Shown here piece by piece: positions 3,041 to 38,969 of a DNA stretch of 64,000 bases. Position numbers and translations under genes: made by a program. Position 1 is the stretch's first letter. Each line of letters begins with the position of its first letter. The notes under the pieces were generated by a model, which saw only the letters and a program-made list of their open reading frames with translations, ran no database searches and was not told where the DNA came from. The DNA is from Echinarachnius parma (taxonomy: Eukaryota; Echinodermata; Echinoidea; Clypeasteroida; Echinarachniidae), in the NCBI GenBank assembly GCA_037951105.1, contig JBAMJV010001794.1, positions 1-64,000 on the forward strand, read 5' to 3'.

Positions 3041-5156
3041 CCGTGGACACACTAAAACACACGCTGTTGATCCCATGTGTATCTCCTAGTGGAACTGTTG
3101 TTTCTGGCGTATTTTTGTATGGTTAGGTGGATCTGTAAATGATGCGCTTGATGTAGAAGGATCATTTTCAAGATGGGGGCAAAAGGTTCTCAACATTATC
3201 TTACCCTTGCTTTGATGGATCTCTATTTGGGGTGCCCTTTTACTTCAAATTGTTCTGACAAGCCAGAAGAAAAAAATCAGCAGAATTGTTTCGTTTATTT
3301 GCTGACTGTCGTTTATTGTGGCTGTCGGCTGTGTGACAATTTCGTAAACGAAGCATAATGATATACATTATAACATACAACAAAATTTGCAGTTTTGAAA
3401 AATGGCCGGGGGTGCTGCAGCACCCCCCGCACCCCCGCTTCCCAGGGCCATGACCCCTCCCCCCCAACTTTCTCCTCTTGTGCAATAGCCTTCTAGGCGG
3501 AGGGCCAAAGTCGAAAAAGTGGATTCCTTAAGGACTTAGGTTGCCATATCTCCACAACAAGTTTACACCAATTTTATTTGCAAGTATTTTTAATGAGACA
3601 AATTAATTCAAAGGTCTACCTCAACAAATGTGTTGCGAACACCTCCAAATCCAAGATGGCGTCCAAAGAAGTAGCCGTTTTAACTTGCTAAAGATAATTG
3701 GAGAAATTTCCCAAACGACACCGGAAATCAGCATGATTTTGCAGACATACTAAAGACAATAACATTTCCTATAATCTGATACCAAATACCATGGGTTTCA
3801 GGATATGTAACACGGTCATTTCTAGCCCCAAACTCAAATTTTAGGCATATTTTCCCAAAAATATGAAATTGTTGACTTACATATTTCGGCATAAATCAAT
3901 GATTGCATTGGGAGTTGAATTAATACTTTTCAGAAAACTGCCCAGTTATATTAACAATACACTGTGAAAACTCCAAGTGTGTACCGTATCTGAACAAAAA
4001 GTTATATCATCTGACTTAGTAAAATACGCGTCGTTGATTGGCTAAACACGGTCACATGATTGGGGTGTCATTTTGTTATGACACCATGGCCAGAACCAAA
4101 GGTACACGTACCGTATGTTGTTTTTGACTGATTTTAGTTTGAATGCATGAATGTGAATATAGCCCCCAGATTTAGCCAGATAATATAACAGTTGTTAACT
4201 TTGTCGTCGGGGAAATCACGTGATGTTCCCTCCACCACCAGTTAACAACTGTATAATAATAACTGGAAGTCAGCATTTGATATCGACAAATACAGACATT
4301 TTGTACGATTTCGAACACTATAGAGGGTGCCCCAATAAATGTAATTCTTGTTTACGGACTTTATTCAAGAAATGCTCCTAAATAATGACATATTGTTTAT
4401 ACCCATTTTTAACAAAACCTTCAGTTTTCTTCTTTTATGTCAATACACGAAAATACACGAAAATAGTGTATCGGTAATTTCACTACAATAATAAATCCAT
4501 AATGCAAAGTGCACTATTTAGTGCTATATTCGAATGGGAGGCGCGCGTCCTTTACAGTTGGACCGACCATATCTGGATAATTATGTTTAAACATGATTAT
4601 TATTCGGAAAACCACAGTAAGCTAGACTTTTTCAGGGTTCGAAGAAAACTTTGAATAGGCTATTATGTTTATCGTAGAGTAACTTTTTGTTACACTGTGT
4701 ACATTTGTAACCATAGTAACAACAACAATAGAAATACAATCAATCATATAAATTTATTTTACAAGGTATAAAACAAATAACGTAAACATAACAGAACTGT
4801 CTAGAATTTTAAGTACGATAACCCATACAGTTACCCGACAAAAGATTCTGCAGAAATGGAGGGATCCACTGAAAAGCATGGCTTGTGGATCCCTCAGTAA
4901 TTAGCCTACCATATAAATAAAGCCGTTGAAATGTTGGATCACCGCCATGATATTCAGAAAAGAAGAAAAAGGTGTTCTCATTTTTGGCCAAAATCTTTTA
5001 ATGTTAAGAAGACGATTTAACTTTGTTGGCGATTCCTGATGGGGGCGATTAAATTAAATGTCTTTACAATAGCAAACAGAAAACAATATCTAATTTATTT
5101 AGATATCACATGCATACAATGATTATCCACATTCCCTTTTCAATCAATCAAAACAT
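3041..5156. other. Intergenic, no gene recognised
   Basis: Unassigned DNA. A short inverted repeat built on CAGTTGTTAAC / GTTAACAACTG lies at about 4,187-4,250. No exon or transposon protein similarity seen. Confidence 0.4.
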
Positions 5157-5699
5157 TTAAAGGGGTAGTACAGTTTTGTTAAGGCTGAACTTTAGTAGCC
5201 AAACCTGGACAGTAACATTATAAACTAATAGTTATAACTCCACCATGCTCGAAAGGTATACACAATTACAAACGACTAAGTAAAAGGCCCGTTATCATTC
5301 AAAAAGAGCCATTAAAACACAAGAGGGCGCTTTCTAAAGAGGCATTGGTTTCAACCATTTTTCATACAAAAGTATGCATTGTGATGTTTTATTGAAATAA
5401 TGAATAAATAGAGAGATCATCACCAACTATTTAAGAAATGCTTTTGAAAATTTTTGAAAAAGTGCAAGCATTTTTTTAATTTTTTGAAAAAATCATGAAT
5501 TATTTGGGCCCCAAATAATTATAAGATCAGATATATTTATTGATATTTCAGCCGTTTCTGGATCGATTTTGACCAAATAAAGTTTATTCAGCCATTGAAA
5601 TTGCATGTTCTCTCAAATTCGACACTCAGTTTTTCATTACCTCACAAAAAAATTGTGATGTGCCACGCCCTCTCTACCAAAACTAAATTACCCCTTTAA
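5157..5699. mobile_element. TTAA-flanked TIR element, family A (diverged copy)
   Basis: Starts TTAA-AGGGGTAGTACAGTTTTG and ends with the near inverse CCAAAACTAAATTACCCCT-TTAA. The interior ('ctgaactttagtagccaaa', 'agagggcgctttctaaa', 'gttttTCATTACCTCAC') matches the other family A copies at 7,700, 32,303, 43,601, 44,434 and 51,139. It is a non-autonomous DNA element; the TTAA ends suggest a piggyBac-like transposase elsewhere in the genome. Confidence 0.75.
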
Positions 5700-15933: not shown

Positions 15934-18900
15934 TTGCCTGCGATTGCGGTGGAAGGTGCGGACGATGTCGATTCGTATGCAGCAGCGGTCCAACGATTGA
16001 ACGGACATTTCACACCAGCGATCAACGTTGTGTCGGAGCGATACAGATTTCGGCAACGCGGACAACGACATGATGAAGGAGTGGAAAGTTATGTAAGTGC
16101 ACTTCGAGCATTATCAATTAACTGTGCATTTGGTGATATGCTGGATGAGTTTGTTCGTGATCAATTGGTGGAAAAGACTAATTCAGAGCGAATACGTGAA
16201 CGGTTGTTAACGGAGCCGGCCCTGACGTTACAATCTGCAGTAACGATTGCACGACAAATGGAGTCAGCAGTCAGGGATGCAAGAGAACTTGAGTCTTCCG
16301 CCACTGCTACTGGCATTAATCGACTCCATCAGCAGAAACCTCGCTCAAAGTCGAAATTTCCAAGTACAAAGAAAAATGTGAAACAGAACAATAACTCAAC
16401 TGCAGTGTGCTTCAGATGTGGCAGTAAGGGACATAAAGCTAATGATCCTGTATGCAAAGCCAGAAATGTCACTTGCTCATCCTGCAACAAAATGGGACAT
16501 TATGCGAGAGTATGCAAGTCAACGCCGGTACGTACAATACAAGAGCGTGTGCAGAGTAGTGATGACAATGTGCAAATTTTGAATGTCAATCAAAACAACA
16601 TCATGTGTCCAGTGACGCTGAATGGAACTGTACGAGTACACATGATTTTTGATACCGGTTCTCCAGTAACCTTGCTTCCGGCAGCCGTGTTTGATGAACA
16701 TTTTGGGAATGACGTGCTCGAAGCCATTCCTGACTCAGTTTCATTTGTGACATACCTCCACGAGCCCATACCTACACGTGGGTTGATCAGGACACAAGTT
16801 GCATTTGGGGACTCAGTCGTCGCAGAGGGCACCATCTACATAGTGGAAAGCGGTGAGCCAATCCTAGGAAGGGATTTGATTTCTGCCCTTGGACTTACGC
16901 TGAAGGACAATGTGATTCAAAGCATAAATCCTACATCTACTACTACATCCATACCAGCCAGTTACCCGGCACTCTTCAGGGAAGGCGCTGGTATCGCCAA
17001 AGGGTTTGCGCATAGAGTGCAAATCAAACCAGGTGCCTGTCCGGTTCAACAAAAACTACGCCGACTACCGTTTGCAGTGAGAGAAAAGGTATCACTAGAA
17101 TTGCAACACTTGGAGGAGAGTGATATCATTGAGAAGATCGACGCCAGCGAGTGGGTATCGCCACTGGTGGTTGCATACAAGAAGTCGGGGGATATCAGAC
17201 TGTGTATTGACTTGCGTGAGGTCAATAAGGCGATTGTGGTCGACAAATATCCCCTGCCTCACATCCAAGAACTTCTCGCAGAGTTGAGGGACAGTGCCAT
17301 TTTCAGTACATTGGACTTAACATCTGCTTACCACCAGCTACTACTGCATGAAGAATCCAGAGATCTGACCGCCTTTATAACTCATGAAGGGTTATTTCGC
17401 TTCAAGCGGGTGTGCTTCGGTCTAGCTTCAGCTCCGTCAGCCTTCCAGAAGCTGATGTCTTCATGCTTGGCAGGATTGCCAGGTGTTCAGTGCTACCTGG
17501 ATGATGTCGTCATTTACGGAAAGACGCTTGAGGAGCACGATGCACACCTTGCCGCAGTCCTGAAGAAGTTGCAAGACGTCGGATTGACACTGAACCAGCA
17601 GAAGTGTCAGTTCCGAGTCAAATCCATCCGTTTCCTGGGTCACATGATCTCCGCAGATGGTCTCCATCCTGATCCTCTGCGCGTTGATGATATTCTCAAG
17701 ACCCCTGCTCCTGAAGATCTGGCTAGCCTACGTTCCTTCATTGGCCTTGCGTCGTATTACGCCAGATTCATTCCTGATTACGCTACAGTCATTGAACCGA
17801 TGAGAGCGATGACACGCAAGGATGCTGTGTTCGAGTGGACTCCAGCAGTACAGCAAGCATTCGATTGCGTAAAACAGGAGATTGCAACTGCTACGGTGCT
17901 CCATCTGTTCAATCCGGATCTGCCGACAATCGTGGAAACAGACGCATCTGCCTACGGTCTGGGTGCTGTATTGCTACAGGTAAAGAATGGCCATGAGTTC
18001 CCAGTCGCGTTTGCGTCAAGAAAACTGTCCGCCGCGGAACGAAACTACTCCGTTGGCGAAAAAGAAGCGTTAGCGTGTGTGTGGGCCAGCGAGAAGTGGT
18101 TTACCTACCTATGGGGACGACACTTCACGTTACGTACTGATCACCAGTCCCTGTGTACGCTGTTATCGTCTCGAGGTACAGGACGTCAGAGTATGCGCAT
18201 TGCTAGATGGTCTACACGGCTGATGCGATTCAACTACACCGCAGAGTACAAGCCTGGACATCGCAATGTCGTCGCAGATGCACTGTCGCGATTACCACAA
18301 CCTACCGCAGATGTCATAGAGGATGATGATCACGAAGTGGTAATCCAGATGGTCAATGCCGTTTTCGCTGAAGCTACAGTTTCAAAAGCAGAGATTCAAG
18401 CGGCTACTGCTTCTGATCAAGTTCTGCAAGAGGTGATCGCGCAAGTTTCGCGAGGATGGTCCAAAGCCGCACTGAAAAACGACGCGCTGAAACCATTCTA
18501 CATGGTTCGAGATGAGCTAGCTGTGCTGGACAACTGCTTGTTCCGAGGAGACAGGCTTGTCGTTCCTTCAGCCTGTTGTTCAACCTTGATCGCAGCCGCT
18601 CATTCCGCTCATCAGGATATCGTACGCACCAAACAACGATTGCGGGAGTTGTATTGGTGGCCTCGCTTGGATAAGATGGTTGAAGAATCCATCCGAGAGT
18701 GCTTCGCATGTCAGGCTAGTGATAAGGTCGCGAAAACGAGAGATACACCGCTACAGCCAGTACCCTTGCCGCCCGGTCCTTGGCAAAAGTTAGGTATCGA
18801 TATCACTGGTCCGTTCAATTCTACACGCGATTGCAAATACGCGATAGTTCTGATTGATTACTACAGCAAATGGGTAGAAATAGCATTTGTTTCTGATATC

Positions 18901-19542
18901 ACATCTAGGTCAGTGATCGCATTCTTGTCGCAAATCTTCGCACGAGAAGGATTGCCCGAAGAAATTGTGTCGGACAACGGCACGCAATTTGTTTCAGCTG
19001 AATTCGAAGCATTCCTCGCGCAGATGAAGATTCGTCATCTGAAGTCATCTCTCTACTATCCAAGAGCGAATGGAGAGGTGGAGAGATGGAACCGCGTGCT
19101 GAAGCAAACTTTGCAGATAGCGAAGAATACCGGAACGCCATGGAAAGATTCCGCCGTCCAACTGCTCATGGCGTATAGATCGACTCCGCATGCAACTACA
19201 GGGGCGTCTCCGGCGGAACTGCTACATGGGAGGAGGATGGTGACCCCGGTCAATATTCGTGGATTCCAGGAGAAAGCTGACGATGCCGACATTCGTGCGC
19301 GTGTCAAGAAAAATCAAGAAAAGTCGCGAATATACACCAACCGCAAGCGAGGGGCGAAAGAGCCCACATTCTGTGTGGGTGATTGGGTACGCGTAAAGTC
19401 AGGTGGACCTGGAAAGCGTGCCAAATTTGGGGCACGACAACAAATCGTTGCACAGAAAGGTCCGTACACCTTTGTGCTCGATGATAAACGTGTATGGAAC
19501 GCATCGAAACTCACGTTTTCTCGTGAGCGAAGGGAGAGATAA
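15934..19542 (+). CDS. Ty3/gypsy Gag-Pol polyprotein segment (fossil element)
   Basis: A single frame holds the end of gag, then two zinc knuckles (about residues 158-195), an aspartic protease with an FDTGSP motif (about 230-320), reverse transcriptase with YLDDV (about 390-570), RNase H with ETDAS (about 660-780), and integrase with an HHCC-like zinc module and DDE core (about 880-1,100). This domain order, RT-RH-IN, defines Ty3/gypsy. It acts in reverse transcription and integration of the element itself and is not a host gene. No envelope-like frame follows. Confidence 0.93.
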   Translation: MPAIAVEGADDVDSYAAAVQRLNGHFTPAINVVSERYRFRQRGQRHDEGVESYVSALRALSINCAFGDMLDEFVRDQLVEKTNSERIRERLLTEPALTLQSAVTIARQMESAVRDARELESSATATGINRLHQQKPRSKSKFPSTKKNVKQNNNSTAVCFRCGSKGHKANDPVCKARNVTCSSCNKMGHYARVCKSTPVRTIQERVQSSDDNVQILNVNQNNIMCPVTLNGTVRVHMIFDTGSPVTLLPAAVFDEHFGNDVLEAIPDSVSFVTYLHEPIPTRGLIRTQVAFGDSVVAEGTIYIVESGEPILGRDLISALGLTLKDNVIQSINPTSTTTSIPASYPALFREGAGIAKGFAHRVQIKPGACPVQQKLRRLPFAVREKVSLELQHLEESDIIEKIDASEWVSPLVVAYKKSGDIRLCIDLREVNKAIVVDKYPLPHIQELLAELRDSAIFSTLDLTSAYHQLLLHEESRDLTAFITHEGLFRFKRVCFGLASAPSAFQKLMSSCLAGLPGVQCYLDDVVIYGKTLEEHDAHLAAVLKKLQDVGLTLNQQKCQFRVKSIRFLGHMISADGLHPDPLRVDDILKTPAPEDLASLRSFIGLASYYARFIPDYATVIEPMRAMTRKDAVFEWTPAVQQAFDCVKQEIATATVLHLFNPDLPTIVETDASAYGLGAVLLQVKNGHEFPVAFASRKLSAAERNYSVGEKEALACVWASEKWFTYLWGRHFTLRTDHQSLCTLLSSRGTGRQSMRIARWSTRLMRFNYTAEYKPGHRNVVADALSRLPQPTADVIEDDDHEVVIQMVNAVFAEATVSKAEIQAATASDQVLQEVIAQVSRGWSKAALKNDALKPFYMVRDELAVLDNCLFRGDRLVVPSACCSTLIAAAHSAHQDIVRTKQRLRELYWWPRLDKMVEESIRECFACQASDKVAKTRDTPLQPVPLPPGPWQKLGIDITGPFNSTRDCKYAIVLIDYYSKWVEIAFVSDITSRSVIAFLSQIFAREGLPEEIVSDNGTQFVSAEFEAFLAQMKIRHLKSSLYYPRANGEVERWNRVLKQTLQIAKNTGTPWKDSAVQLLMAYRSTPHATTGASPAELLHGRRMVTPVNIRGFQEKADDADIRARVKKNQEKSRIYTNRKRGAKEPTFCVGDWVRVKSGGPGKRAKFGARQQIVAQKGPYTFVLDDKRVWNASKLTFSRERRER

Positions 19543-26728: not shown

Positions 26729-29700
26729 TCAGATCTCAGCGGCGATTTCTCGGCTGCCCGTCTCCATCAGACCGCTACCGTAGAAGCCGTCATCCGGCCC
26801 GGTGGCAGCCAGGAGTGCGGCGAAGGACTCTTTATCGGCGAGGTAGCCCATGGTGGCGGGGCACGAGGAGGAAAGCGGGGCGAAGTGGGTCTTGCAGCTG
26901 ACAGGAGGCGGAACCGTGTCTGTCATGCGTTCGACAAGCGGCCTGTGTGCGTGAATGACAAAAGTGAACCAGATTACAATTAAGTACACTCAAACCGCTC
27001 TATTTAGTACACCCAAGGGAGGCATTAATGTTTTTCATGAGCAAGTAGTCTTTATAGACTGGTTCTGCAACATTTAAACTAAGGATTTTAATGGAGAAAA
27101 TATTTGTGGTCCTTGAAAAGGTGGCCAAATAGTACCAGAGGTTGCTTGATCAAGTTTGACTCTTCAATGGAGCCATTGTTAAAAGGTCTTTGGATGTTTA
27201 CTCATTATAAGCTGTACCTCGCTATATAAACAATCTCATCAGAATAATGCATGTAGAAATTGATATGATCGCCCACTAACCCAATGAAGACAATTTGATT
27301 TGAGTATAACATGCACTCTAAATATACCCCAGATTGATTATATTGGGGTCCAAACCTGAATTAGTTTAATTTGGTATCTAAACAGAACTACCAAACACTT
27401 CAATTAACTGCATTTTGTCAACAGAGTAACAACATTCCAACTTCAATTTGTGTTCACATAGCAATGGTTTATTGAAAACTTCAGGCTTAAGGAAGTGGGT
27501 TGGAGCTAGACGATTGCAACCACTATGTCCAAATTGTTGGTTTACCCGACATTGTTTAGAACCATTACCAATGGTAAGGAATAGCTGTTACATACAACTT
27601 CCAATACTCCTAGGCTGGAATTCACAGAGGTTATGTTAACCATTGTATAACCATGGTCTATATCTATGGAGTGCCATATATGTTAACTTATGAGCAGGAA
27701 CGTACACATGTTTACATGTTAACACCTTTTGAATCTACACATATGCTAAGGACATCACATAAATCTCTACGGATGTTCTCAGATGGTGAATTTTATTTGG
27801 TGCCGCTGGTCAGCCTCATACAACAGCCATATCAATAGAAAATTAGCGAATGTGATTTCTGCTCATTACTTGTCTACAAGCAGCACTTCATAGTTGTAGA
27901 CATTTTAAACCATGGTTTACATAAGCCTTCTACGTGAACACCAGCTGTTGAGTATAATTTGTCTCTACTTACAGGTAATCCTTGGAGATGACAAAGTAGC
28001 CGATTGGACGCTTGAACCCGTTGAACTCAGAGCCAGCGCACATGGTGTAAGCTCCCATACCTGTATTATAATAAAACAATCACACATATAAATTATTTTG
28101 AGGGCAACATCATTCAATATCAATGTTCTAGCTGAAGTACTATTCCTTTTTTTATTGCTAAAGTATTATACATATTACAGGTACAAACAAAAAGAGCAGA
28201 AAAATAACTTATCTTGCTGAATGAGCAGACTATGGTTATGAAATTGCGAAACCATGTCCATAATTAATGCAATAGTGCCTTTGATTCTCAGAAAAGTGAG
28301 ACATCCGAAATACACAATATCAAAACTGATACTGCATCACATGAACTGCATACAGTATCACAAATACATGTATATATTCTTTCTGGCCCTGTTGGGCAGG
28401 TTTAATGAGGCCGAAAATCTCAAATCTAAACCCCTAACAAAAGAAAACAGTCTTCAATTTTTGGTTACTCATTCGGGCAAGTCAAATTTGGCAGTGAAGG
28501 AATTGGTGGCCCAAAGAGTAGCTTTGGTGACTCTGTTCAGTAGGTCAGTGCAAACTTCAAGCTCTACACAAGGACATCCAACAAATACAGCAAATTAAGA
28601 AGGATACATGATAGATGTAATAACTATTTACTTATCTGTTGATCAGGGTTGGATTGAACCATCATCGTTTGTCAGACGGCAATTCCTAGGTCATCACATC
28701 AACAGGAGAGCACCCTCTTCCCCTCCCCCCCCCCCCCCCCCCCTCAAAAAAAAAATCAATCAATGACAAAAATAAACAAACAAATAATAAATAGAAATAA
28801 TTACACAATTACTCACATCCGAAGACCATCCATTCGCCAACCTCCAGCTCGGGCAAAAGGCTGTGTTCGATGATGCGGTCCAGACCGTCGCACGTCGGTC
28901 CCCAAACACTTGTGGAGAACATCTGAACATCCTGATCGCGCTCCTGCAAGCAAAAATTGTGATAAATATCTGGTTAAAGAGTGTTTTTCTGTGACCTAAT
29001 ATGTCCACCGAGTGATGTGCGATAGTTCCATATTAAATGAATGTCATACGTCCAAGAAATGAGCGAAAAATGCAAAGAAAGTGATATTTGCTAACTAATT
29101 GACACAAGTTTGTAGTTTGTACACAGTTGAAATGACCACCAGGATTGTTTCAAAATTAAATGATAAATGTCTCAATAATAAAGAGCACACCTGAAAAAAC
29201 CAAAGCTGGTTTCATATTTTCTTTCATAGAGGTATTCTGGCTCTTTCATGCCTCTTCACTTACATACTTTCATGCCTCATTATTCTCCTCTTACTAAGTT
29301 CTAAATGAAAAATGAGCAAAGAAAATTGTGTTTCTCCGGGATTCGAACCAGAGACCTCCGGATTGCCAGACGGGTGCTCTACCAGCTGAGCTATTGAAAG
29401 CCCTTACACTGTGTTCGTCCCTGACTTTAGCTTACTCATAGTTTGTTAAGTGGCACATAAATAATGCACGTTTTAATGTGAGAAACATGACATGATGACA
29501 CACGCGGTACCCCGGGGTACCGCGTTGTGTAGCGCCATCTTGCGTCCAACCGTACCGCAGCTATTGCGTTGTGCATGCAGTGCAGCGCGCGATTGTATGC
29601 ACGCTATACCCACAGTACAGCCCTAAAAATTAAATAAATAATTAAACAAAATGGCGGATTTTCGTCTGGTACCCCGGGGTACCGTTTATGTCATCACATG

Positions 29701-32700
29701 TTGGTTTATGAAACGTGACTAATGAGTAATCTGTTGATCAGGGTTGGATTGAACCATCATTGTTTGTCAGACGGCAATTCCTGGGTCATCACATCAACAG
29801 AATAGCACCCCCTTCCCATCCCCAATAAACATTTTTAAAAGAGGACACAATGTGGCATGAAAGAAACCACTGGAGATGCAAGTAAGTTTGGTTAATACAA
29901 AGTTAATTGATCACTTCAAACTTAATAACTGGTTTATTTACATTATTTTCAATTCATATTTTTGATGGAGGCTGTTGTTTCTCAATGATAGTCAAATTAC
30001 AGAACTTTGTTTTTTTCTCCCTCTTTGTATGTTTTACCTGGAGAAGTTGCGGCTCATCAAGGATAGCGTGGTCGTACAGCAGACAGTTGAATGAGCCGTA
30101 GACGCCGTCATTCACATAGTACATGAAGGCTGGCTCATCACACTTGGTTGGTGCAACCGTGTTGGAGACACAATCTACAAGAGAAAAAATAGCAACACAA
30201 ATCCAACAATGAAAATACATTTTTGACAAGGACTTGTAAAAGTTCTTGAAGACGTACAATGATCCTTTTGTTTGGTGTACTACAATCTTTATGTTTTCAT
30301 GCACGTACATTTAGAAAATAGACAGTCATTCACATAGTACATGAAATCAGGCTCATCACATTTGGTTGGTGCATTAGCACTGGAGATACTATACAAGAGA
30401 AAATGAGTGACAAAAACACCTGCAGAAGTTCCTGAAAACGTGCAATTGTGTTTTTTTTGTTATATAACTACACTCTTTTTTTACATACATCTACAATTTG
30501 AAAATGGAGCAACAACAAAATCATTTTGACAAGGAGATGCACAAGTTTCTGAAAAAACAAAATCAATAATAATATCAAGCATTTATAAAGCCCAATCTAT
30601 CTAGGTAACCTATTCCGAGGCGCATACATACCTTCATTCTCTGGGACGCTGAATGTCTTGATGTCGCGGGCGACCATGCGCTTGGCAGTGATGTTTACGG
30701 CCAGCGTGAAGGCCGAGGCGACGTAGAAACGACCTGGCTCAGAGATGACGCGCACTCCGCAGCCCACGGGGAAGCACTCTGCCAACGCTTGGTTGATGAC
30801 CGTGGCAAACTACATAATACAAGATAATAATAAACTTGTCTTACTAGGTGGAGTTGAACCCTGTTTGGACATACAATAAAATTTAGAAGGGGAGAACATT
30901 CAGGGAGTTTGGTGGGGGGGGGGGGGGGGGGGGGGGGGATAGAACACCCAAGACATCATAATTATAATCCCTACAAATCCCTACTGTCAACACGCTTTGA
31001 ACTTCAAACAATTATAAACAGTTTTCATTATGACTGTCGTTAAGAGCACTCAAGACAAATCAGTGATAACAATAACAAGTTGATGTCAATTATTATCTTG
31101 CATTTTATTCACCTAATCCTAATCGTTTGTATCTAGGGACTCTATTAGGGAATCTGGTTGAAGAAATAGTGCCTTGAACACTGAAATCAGATGTAAATGT
31201 GAGGAATATAGCAATGGGAACCATTATTTCTACTGCAGAATCCTAATGATTGACGTAGAATAGTACCTCTTCAAACTTGATGGGCACAGAATCCTGGCCA
31301 GGAAAGCCGCCACCAATGTCCAGAAGGGTCATCTTGAATCCGAGGTCACGCCCGTAGTCGAAGATCACCTTAGAGTTGCGGATAGACTCGATGTAGGTCA
31401 TGGGGTCGCGGCAACCACTGCCAACGTGAAAGCTGTGAGAAGAGAAAAATCATTTATTGATTATTGCATCCAGCTTGATAATGATCAGGTGCATTCCCAT
31501 GTCTCCTGTTTACATTAGATTTGATTTATTTATTGTCACAAATAATAACAAATATTAGCGTTTTACATGGGGTCGCGACATCCACTGCCAGCGTGGAAAC
31601 TGTAAAAAGAAAAGGTACTCATTGGGATTCAGCTTGATAGTGGTGCATTCACATGCATGCTATGCTCACATTGTGTTCACATTTCTAAAGTTACTCTATT
31701 TTGTGTTAATAAAGGGATCTTAGTAAGTTTGTCTGAATCGACCAATCTCCTTTGCATTTCAAGTTATTTTGAGTCTGTTTGTTTTCTTCCAGCAATGTTG
31801 ATCAGGGTTGGATTGAACCATCATTGTTTGTCAGACGGCAATTCCTAGGTCATCACATCAACAAAAGTAGGAAATATGCACATTTTCTGCATATATCTTG
31901 AAGTTATTTTGTTTTATTCTTACTAATTGTAATATGAAACAAGCTTCTTTTTTTTTCAAATGTAAAACAAAATAATATTCCAACAAATTACTCAGTGAAC
32001 ATATCAGATCACAGAAATGTATACAAATGTTATCAGCCCTTTTTATGGCATATATGACAACATAGTAGATCCCTTCCTTTTTAAACAAAAAAAATATATT
32101 GTTAGTAATAGGACATTAAAAAGTGACAGAAAGCTTCATTTACCTGACACCAACAATGTCTAGCTCCAGATCCTGTGCAGTACGCAGGAGAGCAGGGGCG
32201 TGCAACGGATGGCAGCCATACTTGAGACCGAGCTGGCACTGAGCAGTGGAGTCATCAGTCAGGATGCGCAGCACAAGCCTGAAACACAAAAGTACAAGTT
32301 AAAGGGATAGTTGAGTTTTGGTAAAGAGAGTACAGTTTTGGTCAAACTGAATTTTAGTAACCAAAACCTGCACAATTACAGTACAAACTAACAGTTATAA
32401 CTCCATCATGCTTGAAAGGAATGAAAAATTACAAATGACTAAGTAAAAAGCCTGTTATCATTTAAAAAGAGCCGGCTAAAACTCAAGAGGGTGCTCTCTA
32501 AAAACTCATTGGTTTCAACCATTTAAAATAAAATATTGTGCATGTGATGTTTTGTTGAAATAGTGATTAGAAAGAGGATATTTCAGCCATTTCTGAACCT
32601 ATTTTGATCAAATAAAGTTAATTCTGTCATGCTCTTTCAAATTTGACACTCAGTTTTTCATTATCTCACAAAACAAATATTTTGTGTAGCGCCCTCGATA

Positions 32701-35700
32701 CCAAAACTCAACTATCCCTTAAAGCGTTAATAAAACGTCATTCTCATGGGAATAAACAACTCTTTTTTGCGTACTGTTATTGACGAGTGCATAATTCTTG
32801 TAATATCTAGTCGCACATTTCCTCTTGGGTATCACTAATAATGAAAGTTTTTGTGACCAGTATAATCCGTTTTGAATATCCACTCACTGGAGGCTGCCAT
32901 GTTTTCCAAGGCTACCCCATAAAATGTCAACTGAAAGTGCATTAACAAAAGCGGTTCAGGTTACCACCGACATAGTAGCAGACTCCAAAACAAAATGTAA
33001 CTTTATCCTGTTGGAACTTACTTGGCATCTGGGAAGGTCTTCTTGATCTTGATGAGTTCAGCCTCGTTGTCAAACGTCATCAGAGAAACGTCATTCTCGT
33101 TGGCAAACTTGATGTGGGAACGCTGCTTGCAGGGGTTGGCGAAAATGATGCGTGATGGGCTGATACCAAGGCTAAGCACTTGCTGAATCTCAAGCTAAAA
33201 TACATAAAGACAAAATATAATAATGAAATGCTGTTATTTCTCAATACATCTTTATTTCAAACAGCATACATTGAAAGCGACTGCTCTCCTCGGCTCCATG
33301 AATGCTTTTTGCATGGGTTAGCAAAGATGATTCACAAGAGTAATGGCTAAATTTTGGACCATAAAAAAATAGTTTAATTTCCAATCACTATCTAGATAGA
33401 TCAAGGATAAATATTTCTAGGCTGTATTTTCTAAAGAGTTTACTTCAAAATCAGATATGATGAAGAAAATGTGCTGTGGTACTTGTCATCAATTCATGAT
33501 CAGTCATTATCTTTTTAATATCAATTGGCTAAATAGTGAAATGTTAAAAGCTTGTTCTGTTGATCAGGGTTGGATTGAACCATCACATGTTTTATCAGAC
33601 GGCAATTCCTAGGTCATCACATTAACAGACTCGGGCAAGTAAAAGCAGCATAGTAATTTAAAGCAAGGCTGTTAGAAAACTTAATATTCCTCCAGGAATG
33701 GTTCTTAGCTCTCTTAAAAATTTCCCTTCACGAATGGGCAAGGACTGAAAAAAAGAAATCAATAGCAGCACAGTGACAGTGGTGTGCATTTATTTGACAC
33801 AAACACTTTTTCCAAAGTCAAAAACTGACCCAGCCTTGATAAAAGGAAAATAGTGTGGGCAATTATTTGACAAGAAGCAAGGAAAGCTATTTGGCACTCT
33901 CATAGTGTTTGACACTGCAACACTTTTTTTTCATACAACAATACAACACAACCCAGCTGGCAGAGTCAAAGCTAACATCTGCTTGACAACATGTGGGTCA
34001 ACACTGTAGATTGCTCTTCACACAGCTCTTTGAAATGGTATTCAAACAAGTACAATGTATGCAACTTGCAAGTTATTTGTTAACAGAAGTAAATATAAGT
34101 TTATCAAATTTGAAACCCAATTCCGGCAGCCAGAAAAACAAATTTGAAAATGAAAAAAAATCAACAGTAGTACAGCGGTGTGCATTTATTCGACAACCAA
34201 CTCTTTTCTCAATGTCGAAAATATGGTTGCCTTTATGACTCGGCCTTGATATTTATACCAAAAAAATGTATAGCATGGGCGATTATTTGACAAGCAAGGA
34301 AAGCTGTGTGGCACTCTCGTACGTGTTTGACACTGTAACACTTTCCTTTTTTATACAACAATACAACATACAACCCAGCTGGCAGAGTCAAAGCTAATGC
34401 CCAGTCATGCAAGTGAACATCTGCTTGGGTCAACACTGTAGGTTGCTCTTCACACATCAAACAAGTACAATGCATGCAACTTGCAAGTTATTTGTTAACA
34501 GAAGTAAATATAATTTTATCAACTTTGAAACTCGATTCAGGCAGCCAGAAAAAAACATTAATAAGTCTGTTATATTTGGTTTCCTACATGAACGTGGGCA
34601 TGTAAAATGGAACCATTAACGACAGTGTGGTGGCAAAAGTATTTAGTTACCTGTTTGAGCAAATACAAAAATATGATTAATGAAACTATTGCGACTCGTG
34701 ACCAAAGACAAATTCTTACTTTCCCCCGTCAATCGGGCAAGTGCTATTGTCAAGCCCTGCCTACTTTTACTGTTACAATTCTCACCTTGCTGGCGCAGTC
34801 AAAGCCCACACCGAGCCCTGCGAGCAGCTTGAGCACATGTGGGTCTGGGTTGCATTTCACAGCTGCAGAGACGGGGAGGAAATGATACAAATCAATGAAT
34901 ACACGTCGAGAGGACAATAATACATGCTAATTTTAAACTTGGGGCAAAGAAACGGGAACAGCTGGGAAGTTGATATGAATATATTATCAGTAAGAATATT
35001 GCTTCAGCTAGCTCATGAATGCCTACTATTAGCTTTGTTGTGAAATCAACTGACGTCATACTCGCAATTCAATAACATGTAGGTCAACCAGCAACAGGAG
35101 GCATAACATTTTTCCCAAGGACTATTATAAGCACCATAAAATGTATTTTCACAATTAAAGGGCTGCCTGTAAAGTGTCTAACTCCACGAAAATTACTTGG
35201 AGCTTCCTCGTTTCTCTTCTACCCTGTTTAGCTTATGGTAAGAGAAGAATATAATAGGGTTAGATTTTTCCAAATGCCCCTTTAGTATGACGATATCTAT
35301 CATTCAGCTCAAGAGCATTAATGAACGGTCATAAACCTCATACAGTAATTCGTTGTAAAAGCTGACGCATATTTTCGCTTTTTTAACCAGGAAAGCAGTG
35401 TTCTTTTTCAATGAAACTTTCACACATCATTCAGACATATCTTACAATGATTTTGGTACATGATTGAAGTCTCAAATGTCATTTTGGGCAATATCTGACA
35501 CTTAACAGGTGCACATTTAACCGTTTGTAAAAATGTGATAGACTCAGACTTTTTATGATTTTGGGGGTGTTTTATTTTTTATTTTTTTCACATTTCAAGG
35601 GCTCAGCCACCTTCGGCCCCTGCATATTTTTTCACCATAAATGATTCTTGACACGGATGGTAAAATAATTGTTTTGTTGATCAGGGTTGGATTGAACCAT

Positions 35701-38700
35701 CAGTTATTTTGTCAGACGGCAATTCCTAGGTCATCATATCAACAGACGCCGTGTTACACATAATACAGTGCACGTTCAACCCATTTTGTACAGCATGTTG
35801 GAATTGATTCCAGTAGCTGGGCTTGCCCTATAAAGCAGCGGGCCTGGGTGCCAATGGCCACTAGAAACAGGCTAGAAACTCTGTATTGGCAACCAACAAA
35901 TTAGGATCCTCAACACACAAGTCTACGGTGAGAGTATTTTGGATGTGTAATTTGGGCCATCTGAAAGAAAAGCTTAATGGAGAGCCCCGAGTTGACTTGT
36001 TAAGTTGATCAATGTTAGCACCACGTTCCAACAAGCAGATGGTCATTTGGAACCAAGCCCAAATTTCACACCTTTTCTATCAGATTTCTCCAAAGATGGG
36101 TCAACTTGTTTCTGTTATTTCCCACACATGTAGCCCATTTCATAAAACACTTGCAATTGTTGTAAGTGTCCAATAATTGATACTACCATGGCAACAGCTG
36201 TAATGCTCCATGCTGATTGGCTGTTGACCCACTAGTTACAATAATTGGACACTTACAACAATTGCAAGTGTTTTATGAAATGGGCTAATGAAGGGCACCA
36301 AATAAACATATTTTGCAAGTGAACCAGTTGGGCCAGTTAAAAGCATGTAAATTCCTTGACATACATGTAATTTAATTTGAATAACAGGCAATTACAAAGT
36401 TAAATGAACCGGTTCTAAACTACATTTAATTTGTTAACAGATTTTCAGTAATAAGCATCTCCCTCCTTGTTATATTCTATTTATCAAAACTGAGTGATAA
36501 TGCATGCAGATGAGGCCCCAAATGGAATACCGTATTTGCTGGTGTATTAACCTCACCCTTTTCTTGACAGAAGAAACCACAAAAAGGGGGGAGCGGTTAA
36601 TACACAGAGATAGAGAAATATGTTTAATGAAAATACCACATATTGCTATTATATCAGTGTATGTGGAGTAAAAGGCTTGGAAGGCTTTTCTGTTGTGATT
36701 TGTACTCTAATCAGAAACAAGTATGTGAATTGTGTTGTTTTATTTATTAAAAGTTTACCAAAGTTAGGGGGGAAAGCACGAAATTCATATATACTGTACA
36801 TGGTAGTTTGATCATGTTGCAATCATTCCCAGCACAGGTTTATCATCTACAAAATGTTTTTTCCCCTTCAATGACAACCCAAAGTTGGGGTTGCGGTTAA
36901 TACACAGGTGCGGTTTATACACTGGCAAATACGGTAATGCAAGATTCTCATTCTGTGCAAACGATCATCTAAATATAAGTATGAGAATCATAAACTTGTG
37001 CTGCCCTGGCTCTGAAAATAAGAAAAGTTCCTAGAAATTTGCATAGATTTTTATGCAAAACAAGTTCCAGAGTTTCTTGTTCATGCAGTCTTGAAAAGTA
37101 AGTCATGCCTGAAAATTATATTTAACATTTTTGTTTTCCCTTGGCCAAATTCTTACCGTAGTGGGGCTCTACGCGTGGCAGGTTGCGAAGCCACTTGCGA
37201 TGCTTCTCAACAATATCACCGAGGTCTCCAATGAAGAATGCATCATCGGGATCCTGAAAATAAATAAAAATAATGTGTAATAGTTAGCAACAAACTGCTT
37301 GTCTGAGGATAATATTATACAAATGATGCACAGGCATGAGTGGATCGGTAAGAATTGGATGCACGAGTATAACTTTGGAATGGTGGTTTTAGACCATTCC
37401 AAAGTTAAACGAGTGCATCCAATTCTTACCAATCCACGAAATATGCCTGTGCAGCATTTGTTTTACAAAATGGGCACAAAAAAATGTGAAAATCAGACTT
37501 TTTCCCAGTAATGGCTAAATGGCTTAATTTACCGCCGCATGCCTGCAAAAGTACCGACGCATGGCTGTAAAAGTACCGACACATGCCTGTAAAAGTACCG
37601 ACGCATGCCTGTAAAAGTACCGACACATGCCTGTAGAAGTACCGACGCATGCCTGTAAAAGTACCGACGCATGCCAGTAAAAATACCGACGCATGACCGG
37701 GGAAAATTTTAATTTTCACATTTTTTAAAAAAATTTTTTCGATCCACGAAATATGCCTGTGCAGCATTTGTTTTATAAAATGAGCGCAAAAAACTATGAA
37801 AATAATAATTAAGTGAGCCATGCATCAGTAAAAAACTTTTACACGCTAATTGACCAATCAGAATGCAGGGATTCTTCTACCCATTTTATAAAATCCACTC
37901 AGTAATGCTTTACTTGCCCAACAGTAAACCAAAATAATGAAATAAATGGGGGACATCTGATTTGAAGTTCAGGGCTACTCAAAATTGGCAAGTCATATTT
38001 GTTATTTGGTATATTGGGAAAAGGGTTAATTTTGGTCCTTGGTAAAATATTTGACAAGACAAAAGAAATTGACTTCTTATAGATTGTTCCTTTTTGGGGT
38101 TATCCTTTTTGTTGTTTTGTCAACCTACCAGCAATGTTGATCAGGGTTGGATTGAACCATCATTGTTTGTCAGACGGCAATTCCTAGGTCATCATATCAA
38201 CACAAGTAGGAAATGTGCACACAAGGAATGCACATGAAGTCACAAAATTGTTCGTTATTTTTCTTCCAGTAAAACATAAGTGAAGATAAACATCAATGAA
38301 CTATGCAGTGAGGAGATGGCAATTTTCTTCCTTATTTCTTTAAAAAGTTACAAACTGCAAGAATTTAACCCCTTTGACCCATCTTCTCCAGTTCATGTAC
38401 ATTATCACTGCTAACTATTAGATACAGTGGCCCAGATTCACAAAGCAGGTTTGTAGGAGGTTTGTACAAACCATGGTTTATCCATGGTCTACATCTATGG
38501 AGTGCCATTTGTAAACTGATCGAGAAAGAATGTAAACTCCTTACTTGTTTACAATGTTGATGGTACACATTTACAAAATGCACCAAATAAATGTTTGTTT
38601 TCTCACATGGTGAAATTTGCTGGTTAGCAAGCACTAACTTAACAGTCATATCATAAGAAATTATAAATTGTTTTACTTGTATACAAGCAGCACTCCATAG

Positions 38701-38969
38701 ATGTAGACCATGGATAAACCATGGTTTGTACAAACCTCCTACAAACCTCCTTTGTGAATCCGGGCCATTAAGTTCAACAATGACGGTAATTGCAAAATTA
38801 ATTTTACAACAATACTTCTGATTCCCAACAAACTTCTCCTCTATATCGAAACAATACATACCTCTCGCAGTTTGGGGTCGTTGACCTTTGACAAGATGAT
38901 GTCACGAACAGTCATCTTGTCACTATCGAACACCTCAGTCTCAAAAGTATCCATGATTACTTGTTCCAT
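26729..38969 (-). CDS. ODC1: Ornithine decarboxylase, 11 coding exons, 499 aa
   Basis: Decarboxylates L-ornithine to putrescine in the cytosol, the committed step of polyamine synthesis; a PLP-dependent homodimer. Coding exons, in transcript order: 38,969-38,862; 37,253-37,157; 34,862-34,786; 33,194-33,022; 32,278-32,144; 31,432-31,267; 30,809-30,632; 30,174-30,038; 28,943-28,817; 28,060-27,973; 26,942-26,729. Every junction is GT-AG and phases join cleanly (1,500 nt). Active-site equivalents are visible: PLP lysine K71 (AVKCN), H199 (FHVGSG), glycine loop near 237-239 (DIGGGFPG), E276/R279 (EPGR), C375/D376 (WGPTCDGLD) and Y404 (MGAYT). With these kept it is an enzyme rather than an antizyme inhibitor. 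The first ATG (38,969) is chosen; M6 is an alternative. The C-terminal 70 residues are unlike the mammalian degron tail. Confidence 0.95.
27612..27946. mobile_element. Decayed fold-back MITE in ODC intron 10
   Basis: GGCTGGAATTCACAGAGG... and ...CTACGTGAACACCAGC are imperfect inverses. Internal words 'ccatggtctatatctatggagtgcca' and 'aaaccatggtttacata' match the better preserved family member at 38,429-38,766. Confidence 0.65.
28636..28705 (-). ncRNA. C/D box snoRNA candidate 1 (ODC intron 9)
   Basis: Sense to ODC. Terminal stem CTGTTGAT/ATCAACAG (8 bp), C box GTGATGA, D' box CTGA after guide AGGAATTGCCGT, C' box ATGATGG, D box CTGA after guide GGTTCAATCCAACC. It shares flanks with candidate 2 (downstream-strand 'agcaccctcttcccctcccc'), so the two are close paralogues. 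The 3' splice site is about 575 nt further on, much further than usual for vertebrate intronic C/D RNAs, where a strong stem can substitute for position. Confidence 0.83.
29331..29403 (-). pseudogene. tRNA-like sequence (tRNA pseudogene or tRNA-derived SINE head)
   Basis: 73 bp in ODC intron 8, sense to the gene. It has an intact A box (TAGCTCAGCTGGTAGAGC) and B box (GGTTCGAATCC). The loop CTGGCAA would give anticodon GGC (Ala), but only three of five anticodon-stem pairs form and the acceptor stem pairs poorly. A working tRNA gene is therefore unlikely; a Pol III-derived relic fits better. Confidence 0.65.
29468..29716. mobile_element. MITE with perfect palindromes in both arms
   Basis: Arms at about 29,468-29,527 and 29,668-29,716 are inverse copies ('catga(ca)tgatgacacacgcgg' against 'accgtttatgtcatcacatg'). 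Each arm ends internally in a perfect palindrome centred on CCCCGGGG: 22 bp at 29,503-29,524 and 16 bp at 29,668-29,683. It lies 15 bp from snoRNA candidate 2. Confidence 0.7.
29731..29800 (-). ncRNA. C/D box snoRNA candidate 2 (ODC intron 8)
   Basis: Same architecture as candidate 1: 8 bp stem CTGTTGAT/ATCAACAG, C box GTGATGA, D' CTGA, C' ATGATGG, D CTGA. Only one base differs in the first guide flank (CCCAGG for CCTAGG), outside the predicted pairing core. Flanking sequence resembles candidate 1. Confidence 0.83.
30325..30475 (-). pseudogene. Relic copy of ODC exon 8 (5' part) in intron 7
   Basis: 'gtcattcacatagtacatga...ggctcatcaca(t)ttggttggtgca' repeats the first two thirds of exon 8 (30,038-30,174) including its 3' splice region and upstream intron ('tacaagagaaaa', 'aagttcctgaaaacgtgcaat'). 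A third, intron-only copy of the unit follows at about 30,505-30,560. The relic has no donor site and is not expected to splice usefully. Confidence 0.8.
31561..31665 (-). pseudogene. Relic copy of ODC exon 6 start in intron 5
   Basis: 'catggggtcgcgacatccac' plus 'tgccagcgtggaaactgta' repeats the first 33 bp and acceptor of exon 6 (31,267-31,432), and the match runs on into intron ('attcagcttgatagtggtgcattcacatg'). It encodes a [11 protein letters not shown]-like word against [11 protein letters not shown] in the real exon. Offset is about 167 bp, a tandem duplication. Confidence 0.8.
31796..31863 (-). ncRNA. C/D box snoRNA candidate 3 (ODC intron 5)
   Basis: 68 bp with stem TGTTGAT/ATCAACA, C box GTGATGA, D' CTGA, C' ATGATGG, D CTGA and the standard two guides. 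Flanks ('ccagcaa' on one side, 'agtaggaaatatgcaca' on the other) match candidate 6, not its nearer neighbours. The 3' splice site lies about 365 nt on. Confidence 0.83.
32299..32722 (+). mobile_element. TTAA-flanked TIR element, family A, in ODC intron 4
   Basis: TTAA-AGGGATAGTTGAGTTTTGGT at the left and ACCAAAACTCAACTATCCC-TTAA at the right, about 416 bp, uninterrupted. It serves as the reference interior for judging the nested copies. Confidence 0.88.
33270..33345 (-). pseudogene. Relic copy of part of ODC exon 4 in intron 3
   Basis: 'catgaatgctttttgcatgggttagcaaagatgattcac' aligns with 'tgggaacgctgcttgcaggggttggcgaaaatgatgcgtg' in exon 4 (33,022-33,194), roughly 70% alike. It is more decayed than the exon 6 and 8 relics. 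Confidence 0.6.
33557..33628 (-). ncRNA. C/D box snoRNA candidate 4 (ODC intron 3)
   Basis: 72 bp. C box GTGATGA, D' CTGA, C' GTGATGG, D CTGA; guides identical to the others. The loop between D' and C' is longer, like candidate 5. The stem CTGTTAAT/ATCAACAG has one mismatch. Confidence 0.8.
33735..34560 (-). repeat. Tandem duplication carrying two relic copies of ODC exon 3
   Basis: Two units of about 420 bp (33,735-34,150 and 34,130-34,560) share 'gcatttatt(t/c)gaca', 'gacaag..aaggaaagct' and 'acttgcaagttatttgttaacagaag'. Each holds a decayed exon 3: GCTGGCAGAGTCAAAGC, then CATCTGCTTG and TTGCTCTTCACA, at 33,952-34,026 and 34,374-34,460. Real exon 3 is at 34,786-34,862, just upstream in the transcript. 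Confidence 0.78.
35675..35744 (-). ncRNA. C/D box snoRNA candidate 5 (ODC intron 2)
   Basis: 70 bp with stem TGTTGAT/ATCAACA, C box ATGATGA, D' CTGA, C' CTGATGG, D CTGA. Guides identical to the family. The expanded D'-C' loop pairs it with candidate 4. Confidence 0.82.
36131..36287. mobile_element. 157 bp fold-back MITE in ODC intron 2
   Basis: TAGCCCATTTCATAAAACAC and its exact inverse GTGTTTTATGAAATGGGCTA form the ends. Arms extend through TTGCAATTGTTGTAAGTGTC to about 45 bp each. Confidence 0.9.
37322..37800. repeat. Palindrome plus 22 bp minisatellite in ODC intron 1
   Basis: Arms at 37,322-37,385 and 37,392-37,461 are inverse ('gcacaggcat', 'ggtaagaattggatgcac', 'aactttggaatggt'). Next come about seven units of 22 bp on GCATGCCTGTAAAAGTACCGAC (37,537-37,695). 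After that, 'atccacgaaatatgcctgtgcagcatttg' from the right arm recurs directly at 37,741. Confidence 0.85.
38135..38202 (-). ncRNA. C/D box snoRNA candidate 6 (ODC intron 1)
   Basis: 68 bp with stem TGTTGAT/ATCAACA, C box ATGATGA, D' CTGA, C' ATGATGG, D CTGA and standard guides. Flanks match candidate 3. The 3' splice site lies about 880 nt on. The first of the six to be transcribed. Confidence 0.83.
38429..38766. mobile_element. 338 bp fold-back MITE in ODC intron 1
   Basis: GGCCCAGATTCACAAAG and CTTTGTGAATCCGGGCC are inverse ends. Arms continue through AGGTTTGTACAAACCATGG and 'catggtctacatctatggag' for about 90 bp. An older member sits in intron 10 at 27,612-27,946. Confidence 0.9.

Follow-up and report, generated by a model that had tools for sequence, protein, structure and literature searches.

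Copies of one putative box C/D small nucleolar RNA in the introns of ornithine decarboxylase, LARP1, nucleolin and RBM33 of Echinarachnius parma

Introduction

Small nucleolar RNAs (snoRNAs) repeated through the introns of protein-coding genes have been described in several animals. U17 is reported from all six introns of RPS8 in Xenopus laevis (PMC7601244), and the account in PMC3412847 describes cis- and trans-duplicated snoRNAs in sponges, nematodes and platypus. The locus considered here lies in a 64,000-nt stretch of the Echinarachnius parma genome (assembly GCA_037951105.1, contig JBAMJV010001794.1, positions 1 to 64,000; hereafter the window), in which six units with the layout of a box C/D snoRNA sit in introns of the gene for ornithine decarboxylase (ODC); units of the same family are also found in introns of LARP1, nucleolin and RBM33. 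The arrangement resembles that of U17 in that one snoRNA is repeated through the introns of a single protein-coding host, but U17 belongs to the H/ACA class, functions in the processing of ribosomal RNA (rRNA) and has one host, whereas the present family is of the C/D class and has four. As far as they are described in PMC3412847, the sponge, nematode and platypus duplicates are similar in having copies both in neighbouring introns and in distant genes; those of sponges lie in neighbouring introns of ribosomal-protein genes, whereas here two to six copies per host occur in four other genes.

The units likely represent one box C/D snoRNA of about 70 nt, carried redundantly in the introns of the four hosts, whose D guide would direct methylation of the 28S rRNA at G4494 and whose D' guide would direct methylation of the 18S rRNA at U627 (human numbering). 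Compared to the known systems, the family differs in joining a SNORD69 guide to this D' guide, in its copy number and in the genes that host it. Among the best-ranked results of a literature search there was no paper on snoRNAs in these four genes in echinoderms, which is no proof of absence.

Six units in the introns of ODC

The host gene occupies 27973..38969 on the minus strand, with its start codon at 38969, and its ten coding exons join into one open frame; exon ten ends in a splice donor, so another 3' exon is expected, which was not placed. Both Pfam decarboxylase domains are present in the joined protein. Among the best 120 of 2578 protein matches, the closest named relatives are those of Lytechinus variegatus (81% identity) and Diadema antillarum (72%), and others come from two sea stars (70 and 69%) and a Strongylocentrotus purpuratus model (70%).

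With boundaries set at the common 6-bp closing stem, the six units are 68-70 nt long and all lie on the ODC sense strand (minus). Placed by their boxes, their guides and the exon map, they occupy coding introns 1 (38135..38202), 2 (35675..35744), 3 (33558..33627), 5 (31796..31863), 8 (29732..29799) and 9 (28637..28704); introns 4, 6 and 7 hold no unit of the family. An earlier reading of the window from its letters alone (the sequence-only reading) had claimed six sense-strand units in these introns, and all six were recovered on the minus strand, the intron assignment agreeing with the single open frame formed by the ten coding exons. The intron 1 unit is located 659 nt from the 5' splice site and 881 nt from the 3' splice site.

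The order of elements is the same in 6/6 units and is the order that had been described: a C box (TGATGA), CCnAGGAATTGCCGT, a D' box (CTGA), a spacer of 7-9 nt, a C' box (TGATGG), the D guide TTCAATCCAACC and a D box (CTGA), with the arms of the closing stem outside. In the intron 1 unit, for example, the D' guide with its box (GACCTAGGAATTGCCGT + CTGA), for which pairing with rRNA was computed, is found at 38170..38190 (minus strand), and a 17-mer equal to the SNORD69 consensus (D guide GTTCAATCCAACC + CTGA) at 38141..38157 (minus strand). The closing stem had been given as 7-8 bp; it is longer in some copies, but the stem common to all is 6 bp, with a single A/C mismatch in the intron 3 unit.

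The guides were said to be kept while the spacers diverge, which agrees with the 21-mer GACCTAGGAATTGCCGTCTGA, identical in five of the six units and altered only by one C/T change in the outer D' guide of the intron 8 unit, and with a 25-mer around the D guide that is identical in all six. Neither string occurs elsewhere in the window on either strand with up to five mismatches. The flanks mostly differ, as had also been stated, but this does not extend to the intron 1 and 5 pair or the intron 8 and 9 pair, which share some 26-27 nt of flank (94 and 95 bp respectively, unit included).

Genome census and host genes

One unit was used as the query against the assembly of the same organism (1.2 Gb, 14,790 contigs), and the resulting counts are lower bounds. 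The search gave 24 matches, all 24 candidates being scored, on only five contigs: six units on the ODC contig, five on C4479, two on C4448, six on C8394 and five on C13096, where aligning C8394 with C13096 revealed a further, broken unit as the 25th. The 17-mer GTTCAATCCAACCCTGA occurs 19 times in the assembly and the pattern TGATGA-N15-45-AATCCAACNCTGA 23 times, every occurrence lying within units; the controls, with a reversed pattern for the 17-mer, returned none, and no genomic place outside the units was found for the exact guide 17-mer. The count and control for the 17-mer exclude chance, and the confinement of both patterns to the units indicates that the family is not a dispersed repeat. 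A many-copy repeat or transposon is ruled out by these counts together with the census, and the hundreds of copies that the sequence-only reading had named as the sign of an ordinary repeat did not appear. Its proposal that the snoRNA was amplified within one growth-linked host does not hold, since the same family is present in introns of three other genes.

These three hosts were identified from the exons around the units. C4479 carries LARP1 (PF21071, E 2.5e-28), whose exons sit between the second and last units, an exon between the first two being read by eye. C4448 carries nucleolin, as two joined RRM pieces match the PDB sequence Nucleolin 9cb5 (1.5e-30) and are adjoined by acidic and RGG exons. 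C8394 and C13096 carry RBM33: a 70-residue region used as a protein query has 313 matches with E no higher than 0.1; of the best 120, the top one is a sturgeon protein without a name (1.5e-16), and those with names are mostly RNA-binding protein 33 (best 2.2e-9). The joined RBM33 pieces gave no match as a protein query; it was the 70-residue region alone that gave RBM33. The two contigs are collinear, with 89-99% identity over most long matches, and are probably two haplotypes of one locus.

Counting one RBM33 contig, all 19 of 19 units lie in the sense of their host, the sense of C13096 being known through its collinearity with C8394. As the copies of one host are related to each other, the safe statement is four hosts out of four. 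The four host regions were also scanned for the C/D layout with a closing stem of at least five pairs, which recovered the family units and two others on the sense strands and nothing on any of the antisense strands. A search with a model of the family over 219.5 kb returned 37 matches, comprising the known units, the broken unit in two pieces, weak matches near chance level and three weaker places in RBM33 5' introns. Consecutive units in RBM33 and nucleolin are separated by exons, as read by eye. The presence of several units per host with exons between them would also fit elements that act in cis, as intronic binding sites for ribonucleoproteins (RNPs) tuning the splicing or expression of ODC, LARP1, nucleolin and RBM33. 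Such a role is extremely improbable, as nothing in the sequence requires cis action, the positions of the units relative to the splice sites are not fixed in ODC, and both guides are kept although protein binding in cis would not need them.

Other snoRNA-like units were observed in two of the hosts. The three weaker places in the RBM33 5' introns are a second C/D-like family, with three copies on both contigs (L012:2298-2371, 3397-3468 and 4287-4360, plus strand; L017:6544-6617, 5458-5529 and 4591-4664, minus strand), with a long closing stem in two of the three and guides near AGAATCG and AAATCATAA, unlike those of the main family; its Rfam matches all fall below cut-off and provide no name. 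A nucleolin intron contains a C/D-like unit (L018:7155-7246, plus strand) whose closing stem has 7 bp and whose D guide corresponds to the 3' part of SNORD15 (AUAUnGAGGCAUUUGUCUGA); it too scores below the Rfam cut-off. As at least two hosts thus carry further snoRNA-like units, the view that ODC, LARP1, nucleolin and RBM33 may be snoRNA host genes is supported.

Conservation, duplication and decay of copies

The boxes are in order in 24/24 units, the 25th being broken. The D guide is TTCAATCCAACC in 19 of the 24; in four the same 3' core is preceded by extra letters, and in one it is truncated. Twenty of the 24 units were aligned. The four left out are all from C8394: the flanks of those at 114943, 108639 and 112572 match C13096 copies that were included, and the one at 102011, with an unlike upstream flank, was assigned C13096:35344 as its counterpart on order and spacer alone. 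In this alignment the D' guide is invariant in 14 of its 15 columns and the D guide in the 11 columns TCAATCCAACC, whereas the D'-C' spacer has no invariant column. Of 120 closing-stem cells 98.3% are paired, a value reached in 8 of 500 shuffles. The earlier description of a functional-looking C/D family in which guides are kept while spacers and flanks diverge is supported.

In addition to the two pairs of ODC introns mentioned above, flanks are shared by one LARP1 copy with another LARP1 copy and nucleolin copies (112-114 bp), and by two nucleolin copies with one LARP1 copy (157-183 bp); outside the units the flanks are otherwise unlike. A tree of 19 units clusters by host, needing 7 changes compared to a shuffled mean of 10.4, a value as low being seen in 1 of 200 shuffles, although it is poorly resolved, with 11 of its 16 inner branches open. 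The RBM33 contigs carry damaged copies: C8394:112572 is missing part of its D guide while its counterpart C13096:25336 is intact, and the C13096 counterpart of the intact C8394:103595 is damaged in the D' guide and truncated in the D guide. As each is damaged on one contig and intact on the other, single copies can evidently decay.

Movement between genes with short flanks, as in the 157-183 bp shared by nucleolin and LARP1, and one damaged copy on each RBM33 contig are features that could also be displayed by an inert short repeat or by retroposed snoRNA copies (snoRT) in introns, with few or none processed. This explanation is very unlikely. The 25 copies found in 1.2 Gb are confined to four genes and to the sense strand, the guides and boxes are nearly frozen while spacers and flanks are scrambled, and in the flanks of 14 of 19 units, inspected by eye, no A-tail and no target-site duplication were seen.

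The D guide and SNORD69

Over 17 nt the D guide and D box together, GUUCAAUCCAACCCUGA, show no difference from the Rfam consensus of SNORD69 (RF00574), also termed HBII-210. SNORD69 is listed as the guide for 28S G4494 in helix 91 (PMC12288042), which is also the predicted target of the D guide; G4494 is methylated in human and plants according to the table in PMC11542601, from which the yeast entry is missing. The family differs from SNORD69 in that its D' half is unlike, its scores lie below the cut-off, and its 25 copies are hosted by ODC, LARP1, nucleolin and RBM33, compared to the one copy described in chicken, in intron 8 of GNL3 (PMC2653536).

The sequence-only reading had not recognized the family. 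This can be improved on: the D guide is that of SNORD69, and the D' guide fits 18S U627 and resembles that of SNORD49. No unit reaches the SNORD69 cut-off, and the family was not filed as SNORD69; its D side would act like SNORD69 and its D' side probably like SNORD65. SNORD36 was also considered, as in a search with eight of the eleven host loci one RBM33 unit reached 30.2 bits (cut-off 30, E 1.1), and was rejected: in the alignments judged, those of the 29732 and 35675 units, the boxes and ends align and the guides do not.

The D' guide between 18S U627 and 28S C4456

In a 30-kb ribosomal DNA (rDNA) locus of the assembly, C10537, the best in-register duplex of the D' guide is formed with the 18S sequence GCGGTAATTCC, comprising 11 contiguous pairs, nine of them Watson-Crick, with a G.U at the target. 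The target is the fifth nucleotide (N+5) of the duplex, equivalent to human U627. By itself the match is moderate, but it is stronger than the duplex alone because it falls on a known methylated site, 18S Um627, as listed in PMC8817022 and PMC11542601. The D' guide is in register with the same 18S site as SNORD65 (HBII-135) and yeast snR77, the guides for Um627 and Um578 respectively, and Tetrahymena TtnuCD7 carries GGAAUUACCGUCUGA, which is one nucleotide from it. Unlike in SNORD65 and snR77, G rather than A stands opposite the target U, and the guide is joined to a SNORD69-type guide. The Rfam listing for the units submitted contains no SNORD65 or snR77 match, and the SNORD65-type guide GGAATTACCGNCTGA has no match in the genome (one for its reversed control).

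The C10537 rDNA is partial, holding 18S model positions 1-1093 and 1651-1831, the 5.8S and 28S matches that stop at 2354 of 3401, and may be a pseudogene or a foreign contig. A viral collection scanned for eukaryotic rRNA gave no matches. The U4 snRNA near its Sm site was also considered as a D' target and dropped.

The D' guide UAGGAAnUGCCGUC is one nucleotide from the Tetrahymena guide GGAAUUACCGU and also one nucleotide from the SNORD49 consensus UAGGAAGUGCCGUC. SNORD49 (RF00277), with which nematode ceN22 and Plasmodium snoR28 are grouped in this comparison, is listed with 28S C4456 as its target (PMC12288042), 38 nt from G4494. The same snoRNA could therefore join a SNORD49-type D' half to a SNORD69-type D half, with the D' guide addressing 28S C4456 in place of 18S U627 and both sites near the peptidyl-transferase centre. 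In favor of such a target, the D' half differs from SNORD49 by one nucleotide (UAGGAAUUGCCGUC compared to UAGGAAGUGCCGUC), the C' region is similar, and an invariant A at guide position 12 can pair in 28S and not in 18S. The 35675 unit, too, finds its best Rfam match in SNORD49 (27.6 bits, with all SNORD49 scores under the cut-off of 37), whose own guide is AGGAAGTGCCGNCNGA. Another possible guide for C4456, GGAAGAGCCGNCTGA, has one genome match, equal to its reversed control, at a place without a C box; this match, on C366, was rejected as a SNORD49 gene as no C box lies in the 1.5 kb fetched.

This alternative target is nevertheless unlikely, as its duplex contains a two-nucleotide internal loop adjoining the target, and guide position 13, a potential pairing position in 28S, is T, A or C depending on the unit. 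Duplex energies were predicted on assumed target letters, TCGGCTCTTCCTAT being present as well in two 28S-like genome fragments. On these letters, the unit is predicted to pair with 18S U627 at -17.5 kcal/mol and with 28S C4456 at -15.0 (T form) or -13.9 (A form) kcal/mol, compared to -13.6 and -19.2 for the SNORD49 consensus and -18.4 and -7.4 for the Tetrahymena guide. The nucleotide that differs from SNORD49 thus weakens the predicted pairing with C4456 and strengthens that with U627, and the D half is unlike that of SNORD49. The predicted energies thus place the D' guide between two ancient guides and tilted to 18S.

Tentatively, the D' guide may be seen as an intermediate in retargeting: a single substitution separates it from the SNORD49 guide, as it does from the 18S-U627 type, and it could pair with both targets. 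It would have become fixed throughout the 24 well-kept copies, and the family would have taken over the work of SNORD69, SNORD65 and perhaps SNORD49 in this lineage; at present this is a speculative extension, with the odds against it.

Proposed route from intron to methylation

Splicing-dependent trimming to the closing stem is the established route by which intronic C/D snoRNAs are made. Beside the anatomy, copy census, host identities, sense placement and conservation pattern reported above, expression, processing, RNP assembly, methylation and functional redundancy are predictions from the sequence. Splicing of the host pre-mRNA and debranching would release the intron, which exonucleases would trim back to the closing stem bound by C/D proteins. 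The D guide of the mature RNP would then target the 28S counterpart of human G4494, in helix 91 near the peptidyl-transferase centre, for 2'-O-methylation, and the D' guide would do the same for the 18S counterpart of human U627 through the 11-pair duplex with its G.U at the target. Copies would spread within a host (in cis) and between hosts (in trans), carrying short flanks along, and with many copies of the same RNA single ones could decay without loss.

Several observations weigh against this proposal. With respect to the D guide, a 28S A-loop 17-mer has no match in the assembly, so its target is taken from the literature and from assumed 28S letters; the longest pairing run of this guide in the recovered rRNA pieces is 7. 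All units in the window score below every Rfam snoRNA gathering threshold, the best being the intron 8 unit with SNORD69 (31.8 bits, 37 needed). With respect to the D' guide, a run of 11 with nine Watson-Crick pairs in 3.8 kb of rRNA pieces is also attained by 88 of 2000 shuffled guides, and the next sites in C10537 are one between 18S and 5.8S with 10 pairs and one elsewhere in 18S with 11 pairs (seven Watson-Crick, four G.U). The pair at the 18S target is a G.U, and guide nucleotides A12, C14 and C15, all invariant, lie outside the 18S duplex, which leaves them unexplained, the A at position 12 fitting the 28S site only. The compensatory change in the closing stem, a double change from U-A to A-U, is shared by two allelic copies and is therefore one event. 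Finally, mammalian intronic C/D snoRNAs typically lie roughly 70 nt from the 3' splice site, and the distances in ODC, 363-881 nt, are far from this norm.

Other features of the host introns and the window

The ODC introns contain further sequences outside the units. Partial copies of coding exons 6 and 8 lie inside introns at 31566-31601 and 30298-30387 (minus strand), the first a 12-residue stretch followed by a stop and the second a 21-residue stretch; similar extra exon copies are seen in LARP1 and RBM33. In intron 8, a tRNA-like sequence at 29329-29400 (minus strand; Rfam RF00005, 32.7 bits) is absent from the ARAGORN output and is perhaps the head of a short interspersed nuclear element or a tRNA pseudogene. 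Inverted repeats at 36131-36288 (intron 2) and 37346-37431 (intron 1), with microRNA-model matches below cut-off, look like short inverted-repeat elements, and intron 1 also holds a 22-bp tandem repeat of 7.5 copies at 37530-37695. Elsewhere in the window, and read by eye, an open frame of 1202 residues at 15934-19542 (plus strand) reads like a Gypsy-type retrotransposon polyprotein, and open frames at 60928-63192 (plus strand) resemble exons of a KLF/SP-type zinc-finger gene.

Implications

If the proposed function is correct, two ancient guide functions that are carried by separate snoRNAs in vertebrates would be combined on one RNA and multiplied through four hosts, showing how the guide set for rRNA methylation is rebuilt. 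The RBM33 contigs, with intact and broken versions of the same copies, make gain and loss traceable within one genome, and the one-step gap between the two ancient guides makes guide retargeting testable. Should the retargeting proposal also be true, one multi-copy RNA in four growth- or RNA-related hosts would jointly determine methylation in the 18S core and near the peptidyl-transferase centre.

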